Positions 6,461 through 41,127 of a stretch of 64,000 bases of DNA are shown piece by piece; positions within the stretch are counted from its first letter, which is position 1; each line of letters begins with the position of its first letter. The stretch covers positions 1-64,000 of the forward strand of contig NZ_WQBE01000007.1 of the NCBI RefSeq assembly GCF_013032005.1. Direction: 5' to 3'. A model generated the notes under the pieces. It had not been told where the DNA came from. It worked only from the letters and a program-made list of their open reading frames with translations, and searched no databases. The translations under genes and the position numbers were made by a program. The DNA is from Ruegeria atlantica (GTDB lineage Bacteria > Pseudomonadota > Alphaproteobacteria > Rhodobacterales > Rhodobacteraceae).

Positions 6461-9400
6461 CTACTCGTTGGCAGTTCGCAACCCAGACAGCCATTCCCGA
6501 ACGGTCTGAAATGCCGCATACAGCACCGGGATCATAAGCAGACCCAGCGTGCTGTCCAGGATCATGCCAAACAGTACCGGATACCCCACCGAGACCCGCG
6601 CCGCCGCCCCTGCCCCGCTGGACAGAACCAGAGGCATAACCCCCACGATGAAACACAGGCCCGTCATCGTCACCGGCCGGAACCGGATTTCAGCCGCCTT
6701 CAGGGCCGCGTCCTTAATGCTGGCCCCGCTTTCACGTTGCTGATTGGCAAATTCGACCACCATGATCGCCTTTTTCGCGGCCAACCCGATTAGCAGCACC
6801 ATCCCCACCTGCGCAAAGATATTGCTGGTCAGGAACGGTAATACCACCAATGGGATCAACGCGCCCAACAGGGCATAGACCGCCGACGTGATGATCGACA
6901 GCGGCAGAATCCAGCTTTCATACAGCACCACAAGAAACAGATAGGCCAAGACCAGCGCCGACAGCATGATGAAGGGCACAAGCCCCTGTGCCTTCACCTC
7001 TTGCTGGGTGACACCCGACCAGTCGATCCGAAACCCATCAGGCAGCGTCTTGTCGGCAATCGCCTGCATCGCGATGATTCCGTCGCCCGAACTGACCCCT
7101 TCAGCCAATTGCGCACTGACCGAGGCGGCCGTGAACAGGTTGTAGCGCGGGATCGTGTCCGGTGCGAGGACCGGTTCGCTGCTGACGAAATTGCGCACGG
7201 GCAGCGAGTCTCCGGCGCTGTTTTTGACATAGATGTTATCCACGTCATCCAGCGTCTGACGGAATTCGGCATCGGCTGAAATCACCACCCAATAGACGCG
7301 CTCGTCCAGTATGAAGTTGTCCACGAAGTACGAGCTAAGATTGGCCTGCAACGCGGTAAAGATATCCGCCACGCTGACGCCCAGCGTCTCGGCACGGTCT
7401 CGGTCGATGGACAGCTTGTATTGCGGGCTTTGGGCCGAGAAATCGCCATGTGCACGCGAAAACTCGGGCGCGGCATTCAGGGCGGTTACAAAGCCGTTCA
7501 TTACCGCATCCAATTGTGCCCCGTCGCCTTTGCCCAGATCCAGCAGTTGGACCGAGATACCCCCTGTCGAGCCCAACCCGTGAATGGTTGGAAAGGGAAA
7601 CACGTATGAGACCCCCTCTGGCAATGTCGCCAGCTGTCGTTCAAGTCCATGCATGATGGCGTACCACTGCAAATCCGGACTGGTGCGTTGATCCCATGGG
7701 GTGAGCGTAACAATGGCCATGCCCACATTCGAACGCCCCCCGGCCAGCATGGAATGACCCGAGACCGTTGTGACCGCTGCAACCCCTGGCGTCTGTTCGA
7801 TCAGATTGCCCACCTGCGCCATGAAAGCCTGGGTACGCTGTAACGAGGCCCCGTCCGGCAGTTCCATCGACGCCATCAGAACGCCGTTGTCTTCCTGCGG
7901 AATCAGGCCGGTGGGCACAGTTTTGAACAGATACACCGTCACGCCGACGGCCCCGGCAAACACCAGCAGCGACACCGCCATATAACGCAGCATCAGCGCC
8001 ACAAGGCGCAGGTATTGGCGCCGTAGCCAGACAATCACTGCCGGAACAATCGCCAGCGGACCGATGGGCTTGCTGTCAGTTTTCAGCATCATCGCGCACA
8101 AGACCGGTGCCAACGTCAGGGCGTTCACCGCAGACAGGACAAAGGCAAAGATGATCGTCAGCGCGAACTGGAAATAGATCGTCCCCGTCACGCCGGGAAA
8201 GAAGCACACCGGCACGAACACGGCCGCCAGAACAAAGGTCGTCGCCACGATCGGCCGGTTGACCTGAGACATCGCCTTCAGGGTCGCCGCACGCGGGTCC
8301 AGCCCCTCATCCCGTAGGATACGTTCGGCGTTCTCGATGATGATGATCGCGTCATCCACCACCAGGGTAATGGCCAGAACCAAAGCGAACAGCGTGATCA
8401 TGTTGGCGCTGAACCCGATGGCATAAATCAGCGCCACAGCACCCAGCAGCGACACCGGGATGGCGATGGCCGGTACGATGGTTGCACGCAGGCTGGCCAG
8501 AAACAGAAAGGTCACCGCAATCACCAGCCCCGCCGTCAGGGCCAGCGTCGTCATGATATCGCGGATCGAAACACGCACCGCTTCAGTAACGTCATAGGTG
8601 ATCTCATACGACACGCCCTTGGGAAATTTCGCCGACAGATCCTTCATCAAGGCGCGCAGTGAGTCTGAAATCTCAAGCGCGTTGGCGGCGCTTTCCTGAT
8701 AGACGGCGATTGTGGCCGAGTCCTTGCCATTCAGCTTGGTCGACCCGGAATAGGTGGCCGCGCCCAGCTCGATTCGAGCGATGTCCTCAAGCCGCGTGAC
8801 TGACCCGTCGGGGTTCGAGGCGACAATGATCCGCCCAAATTCCTCGGCATCGCGCAGCAGCCCCTCAGCCCGCAGCTTAAACTGGAAATCGGTTCGTCCC
8901 TCGGCAAATGGCGGAGCCCCGACCTGTCCGGCGGCGGCGATGACGTTCTGATCCTCGATGGCGTCGGCAACCTCGGACGCGGTGATATTCAACGCGGCCA
9001 TACGCACCGGATTGATCCAGACCCGCATGCTGTATTCCAGCTGACCAAATTGCGACACCGTCCCTACCCCCGGCAATCGCTGCAACGGGTCGTGCAGGAA
9101 ATCAGCACCGAAATTGCTGAGAAACAGCTCATCCCGCGATCCATCGGGCGAGGTCAGGTTGATCACCACAATCATGTTGCCTGACCGCTTGGTAACCTCG
9201 ACCCCTTGCTGCAATACGGCCGAGGGCAGTTCGGAACTGGCCAGCGCCACGCGGTTTTGCACCTCAACAGCCGCCACGTCGGGGTCAGTGCCTAGCTCAA
9301 AGGACACGTTCAGCATATAGGTGCCGTCATTCGAGCTTTTGGACGACAGCGATAACATGCCCGGAATGCCGTTCACACGCTCTTCGATGGGGGTGGCGAC

Positions 9401-30434: not shown

Positions 30435-31162
30435 ATTTCACCTCCCGAAAGGCTGAGCGTGTGTCCGTTCACGGATTTCGCAGCGTCCGAGCACAGCCAT
30501 TTCACTGCGCTGGCGACCTCATCCGTTTCGATAAACCGGCGTTGGGGGTTGCCCCGGTGAAGCGAGGCGGCGGCGTCCTCTGCGCTCATCCCCGTTTTTT
30601 CGACGATGGTTTCGATCGAACGTTCCAGCATCGGCGTGTCTACAAAACCGGGGCAAACGGCGTTGACGGTGATCCCGGTCGGGGCCAGTTCAACTGCCAG
30701 CGCGCGGGTAAGGCCGATAACCCCGTGTTTCGCGGCGCAATAGCCAGAGACGTAAGGATAGCCTTTCAATCCCGCTGTCGAGGCGATGGCGACCAGACGC
30801 CCAGCGCCCGCCGTCTGCATGTCTGCCAGCCCGGCCTGCCAGACGTTGAATACACCGATCAAGTTGACCTCGGTCATGCCACGCAGGTCATCCGCCGTCA
30901 TTTTGACAAACGGCACCGAATGCGCCGCGCCTGCGTTGGCGATGACCGCCGTGACCGGGCCGCGTTGGGCGCGGGCGGACTCGAAAGCGGCCTGTACTTG
31001 CACCGTGTCGGTCACATCGCAGACTTCGAAAGGTAGGCCCTGCTGTTGCAAGGTAGCCTCGGTCCGACCTAAAAGAGTGATCGCCACGCCATCCTCAGCA
31101 AACGTCTTCGCAATCGCTGCACCGACCCCGGTGCCACCGCCTGATATGACTACGTGACTCAT
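30431..31162 (-). CDS. Short-chain dehydrogenase/reductase, probable hydroxyacyl-CoA dehydrogenase
   Basis: 243 residues with the cofactor motif [13 protein letters not shown], catalytic Ser in [10 protein letters not shown] and Tyr/Lys in YCAAK. In an aryl-CoA pathway it would oxidise a hydroxyl of the reduced ring intermediate with NAD(P). The gene overlaps the monooxygenase stop and the MarR start, so it is in the same coupled operon. Confidence 0.88.
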
Positions 31163-33453
31163 ACCTTACCTGCCATTTCTGCGTCGCGGTCGGCCAGTCG
31201 CCAGGCCTGATCGCGCCCGGCCTCATAGGGTTTTGGCCAGATCTCCTGCCGGTCGCCCAGCGCCGTGGCTGCGTGCAAGGTCCAATAGGGGTCGTACAGA
31301 TGCGGTCTGGCCAGACAGACCAGATCAGCGCGCCCGGCCATCAAGATCGAATTGACGTGGTCGGCCTCGTAGATATTGCCAACTGCCATTGTCTTGATGC
31401 CACGTTCATTGCGGATACGGTCCGAGAATGGGGTCTGGAACATCCGCCCATAAACCGGCTGCGCCTGTGTCGAGGTTTGGCCTGCGGACACATCCACGAT
31501 ATCCGCCCCCGCCGCATCGAACATCGCCGCGATCTCAACGGCCTCTTCCGGTGTGATGCCGTTTTCACCCGCCCAGTCACTGGCCGATATACGCACTGCC
31601 ATCGGCTTGGCCTCGGGCCAGACCGCGCGCATGGCCGCGAACACCTCAAGCGGATAGCGCATGCGGTTTTCCAGACTGCCGCCATAGTCGTCGTCGCGCG
31701 TGTTCGACAGCGGTGAGATGAAGGAAGAGATCAGATACCCATGCGCCGCGTGCAGTTCTATCATGTCGAACCCGGCGCGATCAGCCATTTGGGCAGCTGC
31801 TGCGAACTCAGCCATGACGCGATCCATATCCCACCGATCCATCGCTTTGGGTATGGCGTTGTCGTCTGACCACGCAATGGCCGAGGCGGAAATCAGGGAC
31901 CAGTTGCCTTCCTCCAACGGCTGATCCATGCCCTCCCACCCGATGCGCGTCGATCCTTTGCGCCCGGCATGACCGATCTGGCAGCAAATCTTGGCGTCGG
32001 TCTCGGTGTGGACGAAATCGGTCAGGCGGCGCCATGCCGCCTCATGCTCGGGCGCATACAGACCGGGACAACCTGGCGAGATGCGACCATCGGCACTGAC
32101 ACAAGTCATCTCGGTATAGACCAGCCCTGCCCCGCCCTTGGCGCGCTCGCCATAGTGGATCAGATGCCAGTCGGTCGGGCAGCCAGCCACAGCCTTGTAC
32201 TGTGCCATGGGTGAGACCACGATCCGGTTCTTCAACTCCATCCCACGCAGGCGGAATGGCGCAAACATGGGCGCGCGGGCGGGAGCGTTGATCCCGACCC
32301 CCGCTTGCGCCATGAACCAGGCCTCGGCCCGGCCCAGCCACCCGGCATCGCGTTCGCGCAGGTTTTCATGGCTGATCCGTTGCGACCGGGTCAGCATGGA
32401 ATAGTTCAGCTGCACGGAATCCAGATCCAGATAGCGTTCAACATCCTCGAACCACTCAACCGAGTTCCGCGCCGCCGATTGCAGTCGCAGTACTTCGAGC
32501 CGCCGTTCGTCTTCATAACGGGCAAAGGCAGCCTCAAGCGTGTCTTCGCTGTGGATATACTCGGCCAGCGCAATCGCGCTTTCCAACGCCAATTTGGTTC
32601 CCGACCCGATCGAGAAATGCGCCGTAGCCGCAGCATCCCCCAGCAAAACGACGTTGTCGTGGCTCCATTTCTCACACAGCACGCGCGGAAACCGCAGCCA
32701 GGCTGAGCCACGGATATGGTTGGCATTGGTCATCAGAGCATGCCCGCCCAGATGATCCTTGAAGATGTCTTGGCAAACGGCAATCGAGTCCTGCTGGCTC
32801 ATCTTGTCAAAGCCATAGGCATCGAATGTCTCTTGTGTGCATTCGACAATGAAAGTCGCGGTGTCTGGATCGAATTGATAGGCATGGGCCCAAACCCAGC
32901 CCTTATCGGTCTTCTCGAAGATAAAGGTAAAGGCGTCGTCGAATTTCTGGTGCGTTCCCAGCCACACAAACTGACACAGGCGCTGGTCGATATCCGGTTT
33001 GAACACATCCGAAAACTCGGCGCGGGTTTTCGAATTCAGCCCGTCCGACGCAATGACGACGTCATAGTTGGCCATATAGTCCAAGGCGGATGCAGCCTCG
33101 GTTTCGAACCGCATCTTCACATCCAATTCGCGGGCGCGGGCCTGCAGGATCAGCAACAGCTGCTTGCGCCCGATGCCGCAGAACCCATGCCCGCCAGACA
33201 CAGTGCGCTGGCCTTTGTGAACCAGCGCCACATCGTCCCAATAGGCAAACTGTTCCCGAATTCTCTCAGCGCTGATCGGATCGTTGACCGCCAGATTGTC
33301 CAACGTTTCATCGGACAGAACGACGCCCCAGCCAAAGGTGTCATCGGGTCGGTTGCGCTCGATCACCTCAACCTCGGCCGCCGGATTTCGAAGCTTCATC
33401 GAAATCCCGAAATAAAGACCCGCCGGTCCGCCGCCAAGGCAAGCAATGCGCAT
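31159..33453 (-). CDS. Bifunctional aryl-CoA monooxygenase/reductase (2-aminobenzoyl-CoA or salicylyl-CoA type)
   Basis: 764 residues, a fusion of two enzymes. The N-terminal half (1-380) is an FAD monooxygenase: [25 protein letters not shown] and [14 protein letters not shown]. The C-terminal half (from about 395) is an Old Yellow Enzyme FMN domain: [17 protein letters not shown], the GHAGRKG loop and [11 protein letters not shown]. This fusion is known from 2-aminobenzoyl-CoA monooxygenase/reductase of Azoarcus evansii and salicylyl-CoA 5-hydroxylase homologues. It hydroxylates and then reduces the ring of the CoA ester. The start is ATG 33453 because [12 protein letters not shown] is the usual N-terminus. 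It is the first gene of the operon. Confidence 0.9.
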
Positions 33454-33511
33454 CGCTAAACTTCCCTTCATCCGTCTGAATACCTTAAACGCTAGACCGA
33501 GTCGCTGATCC

Positions 33512-33540
33512 CTTCAAGTTAAAATATTTTATGCTTGAAG
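33512..33540. promoter_or_regulatory. Inverted repeat in the divergent promoter, candidate MarR operator
   Basis: CTTCAAG (33512-33518) and CTTGAAG (33534-33540) are perfect inverted arms around an A/T-rich 15-nt core centred on AAAATATTTT. The dyad lies between the divergent monooxygenase operon and the FadJ-like gene, where an operator shared by both would be expected. Assignment to the MarR protein is inference. Confidence 0.4.
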
Positions 33541-33594
33541 TTTTTTTGCGAGAAGTTACGCTTTCAATTATTCTCCAAAACGTCGGGTGGCTGG

Positions 33595-35547
33595 ATGGTG
33601 GTGCGTGTCGAAACAAAGGACGATTTGGCGGTTGTGACGATCGACAACCCGCCTGTGAACGCAGCCAGTCAGGCAGTGCGCGCGGGGCTGTTGGCAGCCA
33701 TTGCCGAGACCGAAGCGAACACCTCTGCCAAGGCCGTCATACTGTGCGCTGAAGGTCGGACATTCACTGCTGGTGCGGATGTACGCGAGTTTGACAAGCC
33801 GCCAATGGAACCCCACCTGCCGGACGTCATCCAGGCAATTGAAGACACAACAAAACCCTGGGTCGCGGCACTGCACGGTTCTGTCCTTGGCGGTGGACTT
33901 GAGATCGCGCTTGGGTGCAGTCACCGCGTGGCGCTGCGCAGCACCAGGTTTGGCCTGCCCGAGGTAACGCTGGGCCTGATCCCTGGCGCGGGCGGCACCG
34001 TTCGACTACCGCGCCTGATCGACCCGCTTGAGGCGCTGAACATGGTGACCAGCGGTAAGCCGATCTCTGCTACGGCGGCGCTGAACCTAGGTCTGATTGA
34101 CGATATCGCCGACGGTGACCTGATGGCCTGTGCCAGTGCGCTGGCCCGGTCGGCCGCAAACGCTCGGCCTAGAACTGCATTGCGGAACCGGAACGCCAAA
34201 CCAGTTATAGACCCAATAGCTTGGGAAGCAGCAAAGACCCGCATCATCACAAAAGCGCGCGGCGCACATGCGCCTGTCGCAGCAGCAAGGGCCGTGCAAA
34301 CCGCGCTCGATCTGCCCGCGGATCAAGCTCTGTTTCAAGAGCGTGAGACGTTTTTGACCCTGAAATCCGACCCGCAAAGCGCGGCCTTGCGATACATCTT
34401 CTTTGCTGAAAGATCAGCGTCTAAACTGTCCGAACTGAAGGACATTGAACCCCATCCGCTCACAAGCATCGGCGTGATTGGTGGAGGCACCATGGGAGCC
34501 GGAATCGCCGCCGCCTGCTTGTTGGCAGGGCTGCCAGTGACCTTGGCTGAACGGGACGAAGCTGCCCGTGCAGCCGGGCAAGATCGCATCACAGCCATCC
34601 TAGACAACAGCAGAAAGCGCGGCCTGATTGACCAAGGCAAGCAGGAGGCTCTGACCGCCGCTTTATCAACCACGACCACATTCGAGGCTCTGATCGAAAC
34701 CGATCTGATCATCGAGGCTGTATTCGAGGACATGGAGCTGAAAGCGCAGGTTTTTCAGGAGCTTGATAAGCATATCCGGCGCGACGCCATTCTAGCCAGC
34801 AACACGTCTTATCTGAATATCAGCGCCATGGCCGCCCAAACCAGACACCCCGAACGTGTGATCGGCCTGCACTTTTTCTCACCCGCCCACATCATGAAAC
34901 TGGTTGAGGTCATCATCCCAGACAGTGCCGCCCTATCCGTTGTGGCCACAGGGTTTGCGCTGTCGCGTAAGCTTGGAAAGATCGCCGTGCCCTCCGGTGT
35001 ATGTGACGGGTTTATCGGCAACCGCATCATGTCTGCCTATCGACGTGAATGCGAATACATGGTCGAAGACGGCGCCCTGCCTTGGGACGTTGATCGGGCG
35101 ATGCGCGACTTTGGCTTTCCCATGGGGGTGTTTGAAATGCAGGACCTTGCGGGCCTCGACATCAGATGGGCCAAGCGCAAAAGCCAAGCTGCGAACCGCG
35201 ACCCCGCCCAACGCTATGTTCACATTGCCGACAAGCTGTGTGAGGCGGGACGTTTCGGGCGCAAGGCTAGCCAAGGTTGGTACGATTACGCGGACGACAA
35301 AGCGACCCCATCGCAATGGGTGGAAAACCTTGTTCTCGCGGAATCCGCGCGCAAGAAGATCGCGCGCACTCCGATATCCGACACCGAGATCGTCCAGCGC
35401 ATTCTGTCCACCATGCAGGCCGAGGCGCAGGCATTATTGACGGAAGGCATAGCGCGCCGCCCCGATGATATCGACGTGGTCATGGTCAACGGGTATGGCT
35501 TTCCACGCTGGCGCGGCGGCCCGATGTTCCTGAAACACCACCCTTAG
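33595..35547 (+). CDS. FadJ-like bifunctional enoyl-CoA hydratase/3-hydroxyacyl-CoA dehydrogenase
   Basis: 650 residues from ATG 33595. The crotonase half (1-260) has LGGGLEIALGCSHRVAL and LPEVTLGLIPGAGGTVRLP with both catalytic Glu. The dehydrogenase half begins with the NAD motif IGVIGGGTMGAGIAAACLLAG, has FFSPAHIMKLVEVI, and ends GYGFPRWRGGPMF. It completes beta-oxidation of the dicarboxyl-type chain left after ring opening. It is transcribed away from the aromatic operon from a shared A/T-rich promoter region. A TTG start at 33535 is possible but would extend into promoter-like sequence. Confidence 0.92.
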   Translation: MVVRVETKDDLAVVTIDNPPVNAASQAVRAGLLAAIAETEANTSAKAVILCAEGRTFTAGADVREFDKPPMEPHLPDVIQAIEDTTKPWVAALHGSVLGGGLEIALGCSHRVALRSTRFGLPEVTLGLIPGAGGTVRLPRLIDPLEALNMVTSGKPISATAALNLGLIDDIADGDLMACASALARSAANARPRTALRNRNAKPVIDPIAWEAAKTRIITKARGAHAPVAAARAVQTALDLPADQALFQERETFLTLKSDPQSAALRYIFFAERSASKLSELKDIEPHPLTSIGVIGGGTMGAGIAAACLLAGLPVTLAERDEAARAAGQDRITAILDNSRKRGLIDQGKQEALTAALSTTTTFEALIETDLIIEAVFEDMELKAQVFQELDKHIRRDAILASNTSYLNISAMAAQTRHPERVIGLHFFSPAHIMKLVEVIIPDSAALSVVATGFALSRKLGKIAVPSGVCDGFIGNRIMSAYRRECEYMVEDGALPWDVDRAMRDFGFPMGVFEMQDLAGLDIRWAKRKSQAANRDPAQRYVHIADKLCEAGRFGRKASQGWYDYADDKATPSQWVENLVLAESARKKIARTPISDTEIVQRILSTMQAEAQALLTEGIARRPDDIDVVMVNGYGFPRWRGGPMFLKHHP

Positions 35548-35562
35548 GTGGATTGAACCCCC

Positions 35563-36285
35563 TCAGAAACTCGGCGCGATCATGTTGGCATAGTTGTTGG
35601 CCAGCACCTCGGCATCAGTGCGGTTGAACTTGACCGAGGGCAGCGCCTGCATGTCGATCTGTGCCGCATTGTCGAATAGTTTCGCCAGATCGACGGTCAG
35701 ATGAACCTCTTGCTTTCCGTCTGCCAAAACCACTGCCGGAACTGAAAACTCGACCTCGCGCGCGTTCTCGGAAAACCCCACGTGATAGACCAGGGGGGAC
35801 ACGTCCCCACCCACTTGCAGCGCCCCTTCGAATACGACAAATTTGTACCCGACCTCCCAATTCCAGGCCATCTGACTGTTGGGGTCTAGGTCCCCGCGCA
35901 CCTCAATCGAGCTGTTCGCAGCCGGGTCGACACCGATCAAGAACCGCACAGTTTCAATCGATGGCAATGGCACGGCAGGCAAGGTGATCGAATGCGCGCT
36001 GTCCGCATTGTCAAAGCGCAGCAAATGATAACTTTCGGGTTCGGCATAGGTCTCATCCCCGTGCCCGAAAGACAGGTTGCTGAGGTAGAACCTGAAGTCG
36101 CGAATCCTGAACTGACCCTGCCCGCCCGGATTATCATAGATGAATTGATCATAGATCAGAGGCTCATCCCCCATCTGGGCGTGGAATGTCAGCGTGATCG
36201 GCGTGGCTTTGTTTTGCCTCGGGTTCAGCACGAACCACCCCGCGATCAGGACCACCAAGGCTGAAATTACAATGATCGGACGCAT
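35563..36285 (-). CDS. MbnP-like protein
   Basis: 240 residues with one N-terminal membrane anchor (about 3-20), then a periplasmic beta-rich domain. RIRDFRFYLSNLSFG, then LIGVDPAANSS, and MAWNWEVGYKFVVFEG (from residue 139) match the MbnP family of copper-related proteins. In methanobactin producers MbnP is the substrate of the diheme enzyme MbnH, which converts a Trp to kynurenine; W141 or W143 are candidates here. The start is ATG 36285, one base inside the upstream MauG-like stop (TGATG) with a GAGGGAGGG site, so the two are coupled. No methanobactin precursor is visible. Confidence 0.82.
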   Translation of the reverse strand: MRPIIVISALVVLIAGWFVLNPRQNKATPITLTFHAQMGDEPLIYDQFIYDNPGGQGQFRIRDFRFYLSNLSFGHGDETYAEPESYHLLRFDNADSAHSITLPAVPLPSIETVRFLIGVDPAANSSIEVRGDLDPNSQMAWNWEVGYKFVVFEGALQVGGDVSPLVYHVGFSENAREVEFSVPAVVLADGKQEVHLTVDLAKLFDNAAQIDMQALPSVKFNRTDAEVLANNYANMIAPSF

Positions 36286-37403
36286 CACGACCCTCCCTCG
36301 AACGGGTTGGAAAACTGCGGGTTGGTCAGAAATGCCTCATCCGTCAGAGTGTGCAGGAAGGCGATGATGGCCTGGATTTCATCGGGCGTCATACGCAGGC
36401 CCACCGTTTCCTGCCCCGCCTCGGGCGCGTTGTCGGCCTCAAGGATCAACGGGCTGAGTGTATCGCTGACCACGATACCATCGTTGTAATGGTCCATTAC
36501 ATCCTCCAGCGTGTCGAACCGACCGTCATGCATGTAGGGAGCTGTGACGGCGATGTTGCGCAGGGTCGGAACCTTGAAAAACCCCTTATGCACCGGGTTG
36601 CCCGTCACCGCCATCAGACCGTCGGGCAAGGTCTCATCCGGATCCAGCCCGTTGTTGGAAAACCCGTCCAGCGCATCGCGAAAGCCCGAGGTCAGGAACT
36701 GACTGTGGCAATCGATGCAATTGCCGCCCCGCAGGGACACCTTGGTATCGGGATGCGCCATGAACAGCTTGCGCCCATGTTCTTCCTGCGCGGTCAGCCG
36801 GACCTCACCCCGTAGGTATTGATCGTATTTCGAGTTTGACGAGATCAAAAGCCGCATGAAAGTCGCCAGCGCCTTGGCTGTATTTTCAGGCGTGACCGCA
36901 CCATAGGCCTGACGAAACATCTTGCGATAAGACCCTGAGGCCTGAAGCTCCTCCATCAGCGCATCGATATCCTGCCCCATCTCATCCGGATGTTGGATCG
37001 GCATCAAAGCCTGCTCTTCCAACGAGGTCGCACGGCCGTTCCAGAAAAACCTCTCCTGCCCCCAAAGCAAATTGGCGAGGCTCATCGAACTAAAGTCCAG
37101 CTCACCCCCGGACAATGTCGGCGACTTTGCCAGCCCATCGGTAAACGCCAATTCCTGCACGTGACAGGTTGCGCAGGACACCTCATTGTTGCCCGACAGG
37201 ATGGGGTCATAGAACAGGTGCCGGCCCAACGTGAACGCCTCTTGCGTCAGCGGGTTGTCGGGCGGAACGGCAAACCGCCCGAACACAAAAGGGGCTGAGA
37301 AGTCGGCAATGGGCGTTGCCGTCAGGCCGCGCATCCGATCCCAGACCATCCAACCAGCCACCGCAATCCCTGCGGCGGCCAGGATCAACACAACCCAACG
37401 CAT
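36285..37403 (-). CDS. Diheme cytochrome c peroxidase/MauG-like protein, MbnH type
   Basis: 373 residues from ATG 37403 (GGGGGGCGG site). One membrane helix (about 3-20) serves as anchor or signal. The two heme c sites are CATCH (77-81) and CIDCH (229-233). The APYMHDGRFDTLEDVMDHYN segment (from 288) is the conserved distal part of MauG/CcpA proteins. The residues around Y290 are those that decide between peroxidase and MauG-type protein oxidation. Coupling to an MbnP-like gene points to the MbnH branch, which oxidises a Trp of MbnP. The upstream gene encodes a secreted propeller protein 19 bases away. Confidence 0.88.
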   Translation of the reverse strand: MRWVVLILAAAGIAVAGWMVWDRMRGLTATPIADFSAPFVFGRFAVPPDNPLTQEAFTLGRHLFYDPILSGNNEVSCATCHVQELAFTDGLAKSPTLSGGELDFSSMSLANLLWGQERFFWNGRATSLEEQALMPIQHPDEMGQDIDALMEELQASGSYRKMFRQAYGAVTPENTAKALATFMRLLISSNSKYDQYLRGEVRLTAQEEHGRKLFMAHPDTKVSLRGGNCIDCHSQFLTSGFRDALDGFSNNGLDPDETLPDGLMAVTGNPVHKGFFKVPTLRNIAVTAPYMHDGRFDTLEDVMDHYNDGIVVSDTLSPLILEADNAPEAGQETVGLRMTPDEIQAIIAFLHTLTDEAFLTNPQFSNPFEGGS

Positions 37404-37422
37404 TCCGCCCCCCCAACGGCCG

Positions 37423-38721
37423 TCAGTGGTGGTGAACAAACCCCGAGCCGAACAGTCCTTCGAGGTTATCCACTCCCTTGTTGTAACGCTCTTTGAAATC
37501 AATCGTGGCCAGACGCTCTCCGGTCTCCAGATCATGAACCGAGATCGTATGGCTGGCCAGATCGGCAATGAAATCCACATCGGTCGGATCATCTTCAGCC
37601 CCGTTGCCCAGATTCAGCAGATTGTTCTGAACGGCAATCAAATCGCGCCCCGAAGCCGAGGTGAAAAAGATCATATGATGCGCCCCCGGATCGGCGACGA
37701 TATCCGGCCCGCTGGGCACCAGCTCGGGCAACGCGGCCAATTCATAGCGTTTCACCACACCCGGCAGGGCATGCGAGATGAACAGCTCATCCTCGGTGCC
37801 GTAGAATTCCAGAGGTACAGCCGTTTCATTGGCAACACCGCTATAGATCACTTCGGCCTCACCAAAACTTTTGGAACTGGCGTCATAAGGTACTTTCCAC
37901 GTCTCGAACCCGAACATTGTATTGGCCAGAATGGCCGGTTCGATATCTGGATGGATGCCCGGGCGGGCAAACAGCACCTCGACCGGAGAGGACGGAAAGT
38001 CCAGCGGCTTTTCTTTCTCAACCAAGATGTTTTCAATGGGCTCCAGCGCGTTCAGATCAATGATCGTCAGCATGTTGCCAACACCGGTGGCCAGATCCGG
38101 ATGCACGGTCGACGTCACGACCATGCGGTCCTCAAAAGCCGAGATACCATGCGGATACATGATATAGGGCGCGCCTTCGCCCACCTGGCTTTTGCGGGCT
38201 TCGATCACTTTTACGACCTCATTCGTCTGTGGATCAAAAACGCCCACCGAACCGCCATCATCGCCGCCGGTTCCGCCCATGAAGGTCACGAACATGTATT
38301 CCTGACCGTTCGAATTGGCCCACATGATGTCTTCACCCACCATCTGTCCCTGCGTATCCAGACAGGTGAAGCCCGAAATCACCGGCGCACCGCCCGCATC
38401 GCGGGCCAACCCGACCTCGGCCAGGCTGCACGAGGGATCAAGCCCCGTGGCATAGAGCCTGCCATTCGGGCTGTAATACAGATGGTGCAAGGGATGCTCC
38501 ATCTCAGGCTGTTCTACTTCGCTGAGGATTTCTCCGAACCGATCCGACTCCGGGTCCAGCTCAATGATTGCGATACTGTGACTCGTATCCAGCGTCGGCA
38601 GCCCGCGCAGCAGCACCATGCCCTGGCTTTCCTCGCGGTCCTGCGACAATGCGGGCGACAGACCTGCCAGTATCAGGCCCGCACCGATCAGAACACTACG
38701 TGTAGTATGGCTGAATTTCAT
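37423..38721 (-). CDS. Secreted propeller-like protein, distant resemblance to SBP56/methanethiol oxidase
   Basis: 432 residues with a signal peptide (LIGAGLILAGLSPALS) and repeated blade-like strands. Segments such as IIELDPESDRFGEIL, the His-rich EHPLHHLYYSPNGRLYATGL (75-94) and MYPHGISAF (188-196) echo the selenium-binding protein 56/methanethiol oxidase family. In that family conserved His residues bind metal. The C-terminus ends FVHHH, another possible metal site. The resemblance is partial, so this is a fold-level call. As first gene before a MauG-like and an MbnP-like gene, it recalls mtoX loci, where the oxidase is accompanied by a MauG-type protein and a copper chaperone. Confidence 0.6.
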   Translation of the reverse strand: MKFSHTTRSVLIGAGLILAGLSPALSQDREESQGMVLLRGLPTLDTSHSIAIIELDPESDRFGEILSEVEQPEMEHPLHHLYYSPNGRLYATGLDPSCSLAEVGLARDAGGAPVISGFTCLDTQGQMVGEDIMWANSNGQEYMFVTFMGGTGGDDGGSVGVFDPQTNEVVKVIEARKSQVGEGAPYIMYPHGISAFEDRMVVTSTVHPDLATGVGNMLTIIDLNALEPIENILVEKEKPLDFPSSPVEVLFARPGIHPDIEPAILANTMFGFETWKVPYDASSKSFGEAEVIYSGVANETAVPLEFYGTEDELFISHALPGVVKRYELAALPELVPSGPDIVADPGAHHMIFFTSASGRDLIAVQNNLLNLGNGAEDDPTDVDFIADLASHTISVHDLETGERLATIDFKERYNKGVDNLEGLFGSGFVHHH

Positions 38722-39027
38722 AACTTCCCCCCCTGAGATGAAATTTAGGAATACTTGTGAATAAGATGCACCTTACCCGACGTCATATCACAATACTGGA
38801 ATGGAACCAAATTCATGGGGGCCGAAAGATTTGTTGACGGATGGGGCATTCCTCACTCAATGTTCTAGGCATCAGAGGATAAGGAACCGAAGCTGTGACA
38901 GCCACCCTTCGACAACCGATGATGCGTCGCGACACCGGGTGCGATCTGGTCGTCTAACCCGCGGGGACAGACCGTTATCATCTGACCCGACTTCGGGTTT
39001 GTTCCACCTTTTCAGGCTGATACCCAA
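38722..39027. other. 306-bp divergent intergenic region
   Basis: This gap separates the propeller gene (minus) from hyuA (plus) and must hold both promoters. I see no convincing gene in it. A short plus-strand frame from 38801 has no ribosome site and unremarkable codon use. A small dyad, ACCCGA-CT-TCGGGT at 38985-38998 followed by TTTGTT, lies 30 bases before hyuA and could be a leader hairpin. TTGACG at about 38833 resembles a -35 element, but no clear -10 follows. Confidence 0.5.
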
Positions 39028-41127
39028 ATGATCCAACCAGATGGATTGCGCATGGCAATCGATATCGGCGGTACGTTTACTGATACCGTCCTGCTGAACA
39101 GCGCATCGCAGGTGGTGGCAACCACCAAAACTCCCACCACTCCACATCGCCCCGCCCTTGGTGCCGTTGCGGGTGCCACGCATGTGCTTGAAGCCGCTGG
39201 TGCCGATTGGCATCGGGTAACCGGGTTCATTCATGGCACCACGCTGGCCACCAACGCGTTGATCGAACGACGCGGGGCCACGACCGCCACCATCACCACG
39301 CGTGGGTTCCGGGATATCCTCGAAATCGCTTATGAGCGGCGCTACAGCCAATATGCGATTGATTTGGTCAAACCCGACCTGATCGTGCCGCGCACCCATT
39401 CGCTGACCATCGGTGGGCGCATGGACGTCAACGGGCAGGAACTGGAACCGTTGGACGCGGCGGCCATCGCGCCTTTGGTGGACGAACTGACGGCGCTTGA
39501 GGTCGAGGCCGTCGCCATCTGCCTGCTGCACGCCTATGCCAACCCTGCACATGAACTGGCCCTGCGCGATCTGCTGGCGCTGCATATGCCCGATTTGGTC
39601 ATCTCACTCAGCCACGAGGTCAGCCCCGAAGCGCGCGAGTTCGACCGGCTGTGTACCACCATTGCCAATGCCTACGTGCAGCCGCTCATGGCCGGATATC
39701 TGCAGGATTTTGAGGCGCGCTTTCGGCAGATGGGATTAACCTGCCCGATCCTGATGATGACGGCAGGCGGCGGCATGACCACGCTCGACACCGCTGCCCG
39801 GCTACCGATCCGTCTGGTCGAATCCGGCCCCGCCGGTGGCGCCGTTCTCGCCGCCCGCATCGCCGAGGCCACTGGAGAGGCGGACGTGCTGTCCTTTGAC
39901 ATGGGCGGCACCACGGCCAAGCTGTGCCTGATCGACGAGTACCGCCCTCAGACCGCGCGCAAGTTCGAAATCTCGCGGGCTGAACGCTTTATCAAAGGCT
40001 CAGGCATGCCGGTTCGGATACCTGTGATCGAGATGATCGAAATCGGCGCTGGGGGCGGTTCCATCGCCAGCGTCGACCGTCTGGGCCGCATTCAGGTCGG
40101 CCCCCATAGCGCGGGATCAGACCCCGGCCCGGCAGCCTTTGGAAAGGGCGGGGAAAACCCCACCGTCACCGATGCCGATCTGACGCTGGGTCTGATCGAG
40201 CCTGGGCGTTTTGCCGAAGGACGGCTGCAGATCGATCAGAGCGCAGCGCAACAGGCGATGGCGAAAGATGTGGGCGACCCTTTGAGCCTTAACCCCGATC
40301 AGGCCGCCTTTGCGGTCAGTGAGATTGTCGACGAAAGCATGGCCAGCGCAGGTCGTATGCACGCGGTCGAATCCGGCAAGGACCTTGGCAATCGGCTTAT
40401 GATCGCGTTTGGCGGCAACGGTCCACTGCACGCCACCCGTGTGGCCCGTCGCGCCCAGATGCGGCGCGTACTGATCCCGCGTGATCCGGGCGTCGGGTCG
40501 GCCGTCGGGTTCCTGTTTGCACCAGTCTCTTATGAGGTCATCCGGTCACGCTATGCCCGATTGGACAGTCTGGATATCGACGGGTTGAACCAGTTCTTCG
40601 ACAGTATGCAGGCCGAAGCGGAACAGGTTGTCCGCGCCGGTGCGCCCGACGGCGAATTGCTGCAACGCCGGATCGCCTATATGCGATATCACGGGCAAGG
40701 GCATGAGATCGAAATCAGCCTGCCGGATCGGGCTATGGCCGCCTCAGACCTCGACGCGCTAAGGCAAGCTTTTGAGACGGAATACAGCCGACAATTCAGC
40801 CGTATCGTGCCCGGCATGACCATCGAGATTCTGAACTGGGGACTGTCCGTTTCATCGCCAGCACCTACACATGAGCCGTATCTTGGAAACCCGGGTCATC
40901 GGCAGGCGGAAACGACCGAACAGCGCCAGATCCTGTGCGACATTACCGGGGAATGGCGCTCTGCAGGCGTCTACAGCCGCACCGACCTGACGCCGGGATC
41001 AACGCTCAGCGGTCCGGCGCTGATTGTCGAGGCACAAACGACCACATTTGTTAGCGCAGATTTCGGCGCAACCGTGGATGGCCAGGGCAATATCTGGCTG
41101 ACGCGGCAAGAGGAGGCACAGGGATGA
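39028..41127 (+). CDS. hyuA: Hydantoinase/oxoprolinase subunit A (HyuA family)
   Basis: 699 residues, the normal length. The ATPase-fold start MAIDIGGTFTDTVLLN is preceded by 8 residues from ATG 39028; ATG 39052 would begin exactly at MAIDIGG and is an alternative. HGTTLATNALIERRGA, DMGGTTAKLCLIDE and GGNGPLHATRVAR are family motifs. With HyuB it forms an ATP-dependent amidohydrolase acting on hydantoin-like or oxoproline-like rings (or a carboxylase in acetone/acetophenone relatives). The stop overlaps hyuB by ATGA. The substrate is not known. Confidence 0.9.
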   Translation: MIQPDGLRMAIDIGGTFTDTVLLNSASQVVATTKTPTTPHRPALGAVAGATHVLEAAGADWHRVTGFIHGTTLATNALIERRGATTATITTRGFRDILEIAYERRYSQYAIDLVKPDLIVPRTHSLTIGGRMDVNGQELEPLDAAAIAPLVDELTALEVEAVAICLLHAYANPAHELALRDLLALHMPDLVISLSHEVSPEAREFDRLCTTIANAYVQPLMAGYLQDFEARFRQMGLTCPILMMTAGGGMTTLDTAARLPIRLVESGPAGGAVLAARIAEATGEADVLSFDMGGTTAKLCLIDEYRPQTARKFEISRAERFIKGSGMPVRIPVIEMIEIGAGGGSIASVDRLGRIQVGPHSAGSDPGPAAFGKGGENPTVTDADLTLGLIEPGRFAEGRLQIDQSAAQQAMAKDVGDPLSLNPDQAAFAVSEIVDESMASAGRMHAVESGKDLGNRLMIAFGGNGPLHATRVARRAQMRRVLIPRDPGVGSAVGFLFAPVSYEVIRSRYARLDSLDIDGLNQFFDSMQAEAEQVVRAGAPDGELLQRRIAYMRYHGQGHEIEISLPDRAMAASDLDALRQAFETEYSRQFSRIVPGMTIEILNWGLSVSSPAPTHEPYLGNPGHRQAETTEQRQILCDITGEWRSAGVYSRTDLTPGSTLSGPALIVEAQTTTFVSADFGATVDGQGNIWLTRQEEAQG

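Follow-up and report, generated by a model that had tools for sequence, protein, structure and literature searches.

Three co-directed minus-strand genes at 35563-38721 of a 64,000-nucleotide stretch of Ruegeria atlantica DNA (contig NZ_WQBE01000007.1, positions 1 to 64,000; hereafter the window) encode, in order, a propeller with apparent kinship to the SBP56 family, a diheme protein resembling MbnH, and an MbnP-like protein, and together they form a unit that is real, conserved, and apparently unnamed. A first-pass annotation, made from the sequence alone, had already grouped the three genes and pointed out HPLHHLYY and FVHHH in the propeller and a TGATG junction between the other two genes; its coordinates and motifs proved right when the open reading frames (ORFs) were re-read. 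The unit, the homologies of its products, and their invariant residues are observed directly. The function that we propose, with about an even chance of being correct, is that of a periplasmic metal-dependent oxidoreductase, most likely a copper enzyme, accompanied by two metal-handling proteins, one partner being matured by oxidation of a tryptophan.

MbnH/MbnP pairs have already been described well beyond methanobactin producers, and the free-standing ones have been called mysterious partners (PMC3621798; this and the other papers cited here were used in excerpt). With the unit, such a pair would gain a definite client: a propeller with a conserved metal pocket, akin to the copper thiol oxidases. 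The unit also yields a testable claim on how periplasmic copper enzymes could obtain their metal without SCO1, and it suggests that marine bacteria active on organic sulfur possess an enzyme family so far uncharacterised.

Conservation and distribution of the unit

A propeller scan of the GTDB collection, with one genome per species, gave 41 loci, in which the unit was scored as present when tblastn covered more than 80% of every one of its proteins. The propeller, mbnH, and mbnP occur in the same order and on one strand in 33 of the 41, in genera ranging from Ruegeria and Leisingera to Alteromonas, Colwellia, Thalassotalea, Simiduia, and Vibrio, so the gene order on which the first-pass annotation had based its unit recurs in other genomes. 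A contig end cuts mbnP in locus L035 and the propeller in loci L050 and L052; in the L052 genome, mbnH and mbnP open another contig (L135) at 60% and 46% identity, the unit thus being split over two contigs. All three genes are fragmented in Ruegeria arenilitoris HKCCD6430 (L056, 7001-9228), where the neighbours match those of the window, and the loss of all three is what would be expected if one gene were useless without the others.

A second survey, a profile search of 295 genomes of one order (gammaproteobacterial, by inference from kin), returned five matches. One, L144, is of the three-gene (trio) type; of the remaining four, one is marginal. L144 is an independent match, with a propeller at 68% identity, a diheme protein at 60%, and the start of an MbnP-like protein at 38%. 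Within the window's family, 5 of 394 genomes matched the propeller, the window's own included, and the close matches are two, namely the window's own genome and G509, apparently the metagenome-assembled genome (MAG) that holds L031. The unit is therefore rare and patchy, and it is spread over two classes. Since alpha- and gammaproteobacterial propellers nevertheless share up to 72% identity, this pattern suggests horizontal spread, as judged from sequence comparison. Flanking genes differ between genera where they were read (L030, L038, L040, and L049 against the window), which argues that the conserved thing is the unit and not a shared chromosome region. A plasmid-borne unit was considered and rejected, the propeller having no match in 72,556 plasmid records.

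The first-pass annotation had placed the unit outside any methanobactin operon, and this agrees with our search of 42 genomes (two of whose handles look like the same MAG, and with the genome of L044 left out): none held an MbnB over the cut-off of 325 bits, MbnA and MbnC not having been searched for. Weaker MbnB matches occur in 34 of the 42, the best at 73.5 bits. A true mtoX exceeded its cut-off in none of these genomes either, which says nothing on exclusion because only 3 of 120 genomes in a family survey carry mtoX; the genome of the window does encode a canonical SBP56 protein at another locus (684.8 bits). Word searches of the open-access literature, seen in part, retrieved no paper joining an SBP56-type propeller with MbnH/MbnP, and closed papers may note it.

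The three proteins

The propeller begins with what appears by eye to be a signal sequence, carries HPLHHLYY at residues 76-83, and ends in FVHHH. Its relation to SBP56 had been described as partial and turned out firmer. SBP56 is the only Pfam family touched by most members (23 of 35 at E<=0.01), and profile-profile comparison with hhalign gave a probability of 95.7% over 302 collinear columns against SBP56 and 91.1% over 313 columns against three bona fide MtoX proteins. The best solved fold for the AlphaFold2 model (mean pLDDT 87.3, pTM 0.87) was 2ece, an SBP56 protein of Sulfolobus; Foldseek gave it E 1.1e-10, against 2.8e-9 for the next match, and a VIA fold comparison gave Z 30.2 and rmsd 3.2 over 355 aligned positions. 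Profile and predicted structure thus make the propeller a distant homologue of SBP56, seven-bladed and collinear over its length.

For the alignment of propellers, 35 of the 42 available were used, L034, L037, L048, L050, L052, L054, and L056 being omitted as near-copies or incomplete. Nine His/Glu residues are invariant among the 35, down to 30% identity: H79, H80, E130, H191, E248, E305, H348, H349, and H432. The first-pass annotation had allowed that no His cluster might be conserved, and the opposite was found. These residues sit in strands about one blade apart, roughly one or two per blade, a spacing derived from predicted strand limits and the alignment rather than from pocket distances. 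In a wider set, nine added alphaproteobacterial relatives bring the non-trio sequences to 12; H79, H80, H191, H348, and H349 are kept in all 12, E130, E248, and E305 in 11 (the exception being L014), and H432 in nine. With such an invariant set, an ordinary propeller without a metal site was set aside.

In three alignment modes, H79/H80 fall on the His-His of SBP56 and E248 on its PLE Glu, D131 and W134 occupy the two His of HxxH, H348/H349 fall on Gln-Met or Asn-Met, and H191 lies one residue before the SBP56 Asp; the C-terminal His meets that of SBP56 in one of the three modes. From the SBP56 pocket set (His-His, HxxH, Asp, and Glu), only His-His and Glu are retained. Human SELENBP1 requires H73, H74, H137, H140, D189, and E252 for thiol-oxidase activity, and its copper content is lowered by mutants of H137, H140, D189, and E252, not of H73 and H74 (PMC10362175). 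When the human numbers are linked to the bacterial motifs through the motif names in the excerpt of that paper, H73, H74, and E252 match H79, H80, and E248 of the propeller. Because His-His and Glu coincide with the SELENBP1 pocket while the other ligands differ, we read the alignment as indicating a pocket homologous to that of SBP56 with a re-arranged ligand set. The SBP56 link drawn in the first-pass annotation is corrected here in that the copper pocket retains the SBP56 ligands only in part.

By eye, 15 non-alphaproteobacterial propellers (L036, L038-L047, L049, L051, L053, and L055) have a lipobox-like Cys at the start and may therefore be located on the outer membrane; the N-termini of alphaproteobacterial propellers resemble those of ordinary secreted proteins. 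Near six of the 12 non-trio propellers with flanks read there is an HLHGY protein and/or a membrane protein beginning HxFGxRYDLP (L009 8965-10966, L011 5618-7213, L012 5460-7356, L013 8833-9210, L145 1-1280, and L146 2714-3993), and neither is near those of L010, L014, L057, L058, L059, and L147. The HLHGY protein is small and secreted, and in one case it weakly matches the C-terminal region of NosZ; the membrane protein has no Pfam match. Together they may amount to an alternative set of copper proteins serving the same propeller family, and helper proteins therefore look exchangeable.

The first-pass annotation had identified the other two products as a two-heme MauG-like protein and an MbnP-like partner, and both identifications stand. 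The diheme protein has an N-terminal hydrophobic segment and two CxxCH sites (C77, C80, and H81; C229, C232, and H233), which along with Y306 are invariant in 35 trio sequences. It matches CCP_MauG at 2.9e-54 and MbnH TIGR04039 at 253.4 bits, below the cut-off of 362.85 and yet over the full length of the model (1-336 of 336). Among solved structures, the nearest in sequence is 6e1c (E 2.4e-52), whose entry names a di-heme enzyme; it is the MbnH of Methylosinus. Y306 aligns with the Tyr of 6e1c, as at the distal position in MbnH and MauG, and is presumably an axial ligand; W121, Q131, P135, and E141 share the spacing of W93, Q103, P107, and E113 of MauG. Identity is 31-35% to other MbnHs and 30-31% to two MtoX-associated MauGs. 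In a tree, 12 trio proteins formed one clade (support 100/99); because of its long branches and only 24 rows, we used the tree solely for the unity of that clade. The expectation of a MauG-type gene as in SBP56 loci holds at the level of the MauG superfamily and no further, since the protein is no closer to the MauGs associated with methanethiol oxidase (MTO) than to MbnHs and belongs to a clade of its own.

The MbnP-like protein, which also has an N-terminal hydrophobic segment, scores 140.6 bits against Pfam PF20243 (MbnP; cut-off 27) and 44.6 bits against TIGR04052, below the cut-off of 140. A sequence search of solved structures returned nothing at E<=1, and nothing at E<=10 for the trimmed protein. 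The predicted structure (mean pLDDT 85.6) has one fold match that stands out, M. trichosporium MbnP (7l6g), at Z 15.8 and rmsd 3.3 over 202 aligned positions, the next match having Z 5.9; both the MbnP fold and the WxW motif are present. All 34 sequences compared share MAWxWxxGYKF, including W141 and W143, as well as H168, and almost all have H87. Among nine other MbnPs, WxW occurs in eight and the aligned His before Gly recurs. No Cys is found in 23 of the 34 trio MbnPs and one to three in the other 11, as against 7-8 in nine proteobacterial MbnPs; Cys-poverty is not unique to the trio, since the flavobacterial MbnPs L136/L137 are Cys-poor too. By analogy with the copper site of MopE/CorA, which consists of two histidines and a kynurenine (PMC3912023), H87, H168, and a modified W141 or W143 would be natural candidates for a copper site.

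Proposed function and its alternatives

The closest parallel to the unit is in its working parts, not in membership, and lies with the mtoX-SCO1/senC-mauG operon of Hyphomicrobium and Ruegeria pomeroyi, which likewise combines genes for a periplasmic SBP56-type propeller, a diheme protein of the MauG superfamily, and a copper protein (PMC5739008). The order regulator-mtoX-SCO1-mauG was seen in L141. The pocket His-His and Glu are common to both propellers, whereas the HxxH of MtoX is replaced by ED..W in the trio propeller, with new His in blades 3 and 6. The trio also has an MbnP-like protein in place of SCO1, and its diheme protein is about 30% identical to the MTO-associated MauGs. No SCO1/senC gene is among the three genes of the unit, no SCO1 model having been run on the window.

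The MbnH/MbnP pair (TIGR04039/TIGR04052; 6e1c, 7l6g) likewise consists of adjacent genes for a diheme protein and a protein with the MbnP fold and WxW. Both trio partners fall under the NCBIfam cut-offs, and the trio has mbnH before mbnP, while mbnP comes first in nine of 10 other loci, the tenth having no MbnH in view. MopE/CorA with SACCP/CorB similarly sets a copper protein with a Trp-derived kynurenine alongside a diheme peroxidase-like gene, and the excerpt of PMC3912023 mentions no propeller in that operon. Foldseek did not list MopE/CorA among the matches of the MbnP-like model, an absence that rules nothing out. AztD, a zinc metallochaperone, resembles the trio propeller in being a periplasmic metal-binding propeller and differs in being 12% identical to it over the alignment; no MbnH/MbnP is known to occur with AztD.

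Choice-of-anchor B proteins are propellers. In the Gammaproteobacteria, ordinary mbnP-mbnH pairs adjoin a divergent secreted gene of this type in L112, L114, L116, L118, and L139 (TIGR04312, 269 bits for L116; the others 42-57% identical to that of L116), i.e., in four of the 10 other MbnP loci, plus L139. A secreted partner beside MbnH/MbnP may be a wider theme.

We infer the following scheme. The central pocket of the propeller would carry the re-arranged His/Glu set, and the diheme protein would oxidise a Trp of MAWxW in its MbnP-like partner. In the known pair this yields kynurenine, which MbnH reportedly makes in MbnP (Manesis, 2021). So oxidised, the MbnP-like protein would become a copper binder and could load copper into the propeller or hold copper for it. 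The pair would then serve, by another route, the role proposed for SCO1/SenC and MauG in mtoX-SCO1-mauG. Small thiols are a first guess for the substrate of the putative oxidase. SBP56 enzymes give H2O2 (PMC10362175), and if the propeller reduces O2 to H2O2 like these relatives, the peroxide could feed the diheme protein.

Several observations weigh against this scheme. The propeller is far under the family cut-offs, at 19.6 bits against SBP56 (Pfam, curated cut-off 34) and 10.2 bits against MtoX (NCBIfam, cut-off 650), so that the methanethiol oxidase link of the first-pass annotation survives as SBP56 kinship and not as membership of MtoX. Its pocket has no HxxH motif. Other propellers score near 2ece (next Z 28.8), because of which the sequence profile outweighs the fold for SBP56 kinship, and the second Foldseek match is AztD, a periplasmic zinc-binding protein. 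The L031 propeller (7001-8269; Paracoccaceae MAG), at 75% identity, keeps all invariant ligands and W134 with MbnH/MbnP absent nearby, a secreted-type ORF coming after it at 8507-9208; no MbnP match was found in that genome (a MAG of 89% completeness) or in the L050 genome, where the contig end cuts the propeller. The propellers of L057 and L058 (Flavobacterium, 38-39%) and L059 (Nitrospira, 31%) are without the pair, and the 12 more distant relatives keep most ligands with no adjacent pair, which indicates that the propeller family overall does not require it.

AztD also bears on a rather unlikely alternative, in which the propeller and the MbnP-like protein bind metal in the periplasm or at the cell surface so as to acquire or buffer copper (or zinc), as MopE/CorA do in methanotrophs and AztD does for zinc, and catalyse nothing. 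The lipobox-like Cys of the 15 propellers would suit this, as would the action of MbnP/CorA relatives in copper handling (PMC3912023, PMC3621798). However, the nearest profile and fold belong to an enzyme family, no transporter gene is in the three-gene unit, and an active site would explain no less well why the ligand set stays fixed when much of the remaining sequence has diverged to 30% identity. That the pair and the propeller merely travel together and do unrelated periplasmic jobs appears quite improbable: MbnP-MbnH pairs without the propeller and propellers without the pair both occur, but order and strand are kept in most loci of two classes, the trio MbnH- and MbnP-like members are subfamilies of their own, and L056 has lost all three genes.

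It is improbable, too, that the diheme protein acts on the propeller as well and generates in it a cofactor derived from Trp, in the way that MauG makes tryptophan tryptophylquinone (TTQ). The known substrate of MbnH is MbnP, and L031 retains W134 without the pair. W134 is present in 36 of 36 trio-clade propellers and 0 of 12 others, at the position of the second His of SBP56 HxxH, and methanethiol oxidase has been proposed to contain a TTQ (PMC5739008). C98, C120, M143, and H317, among others, are likewise clade-specific, however, and W134 is weak evidence because the trio clade shares much ancestry. A further idea, which we consider a long shot, is that the diheme protein matures two partners, making kynurenine in the MbnP-like protein and oxidising W134 of the propeller, so as to give an enzyme with a Trp-derived group in its copper site and peroxide from its own catalysis. 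If true, this would be a self-supplying maturation circuit.

Gene layout and neighbouring sequence

Table 1. Features of the three-gene unit in the window
Feature	Position	Strand	Basis
Secreted SBP56-like propeller, 432 aa	37423..38721	-	invariant His/Glu set, profile, fold comparison
MbnH-like (MauG/bCcP superfamily) diheme protein, 372 aa	36285..37403	-	family scores, CATCH 77-81, CIDCH 229-233
MbnP-like protein, 240 aa	35563..36285	-	PF20243, MbnP fold, MAWxWxxGYKF (139-149)
Upstream stretch, blocks alike in 13 Ruegeria-type sequences, may hold promoter	38722..38800	-	alignment of 12 loci + window

The ATG of the diheme gene at 37403 is 19 nt past the propeller stop, making a longer ORF from 37592 unnecessary, and TGATG is the overlap of the diheme gene stop with the MbnP-like gene start. 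Alignment of the 13 upstream sequences gave no defensible motif. The neighbours on both sides (33535-35547 and 39028-41127) are on the plus strand, which limits the unit to three genes. Further off, with no link to the trio seen, a 770-aa ORF at 31159-33471 lies within a set of CoA-metabolism genes and presumably encodes a two-domain FAD monooxygenase/OYE-type protein of the salicylyl- or anthraniloyl-CoA type.

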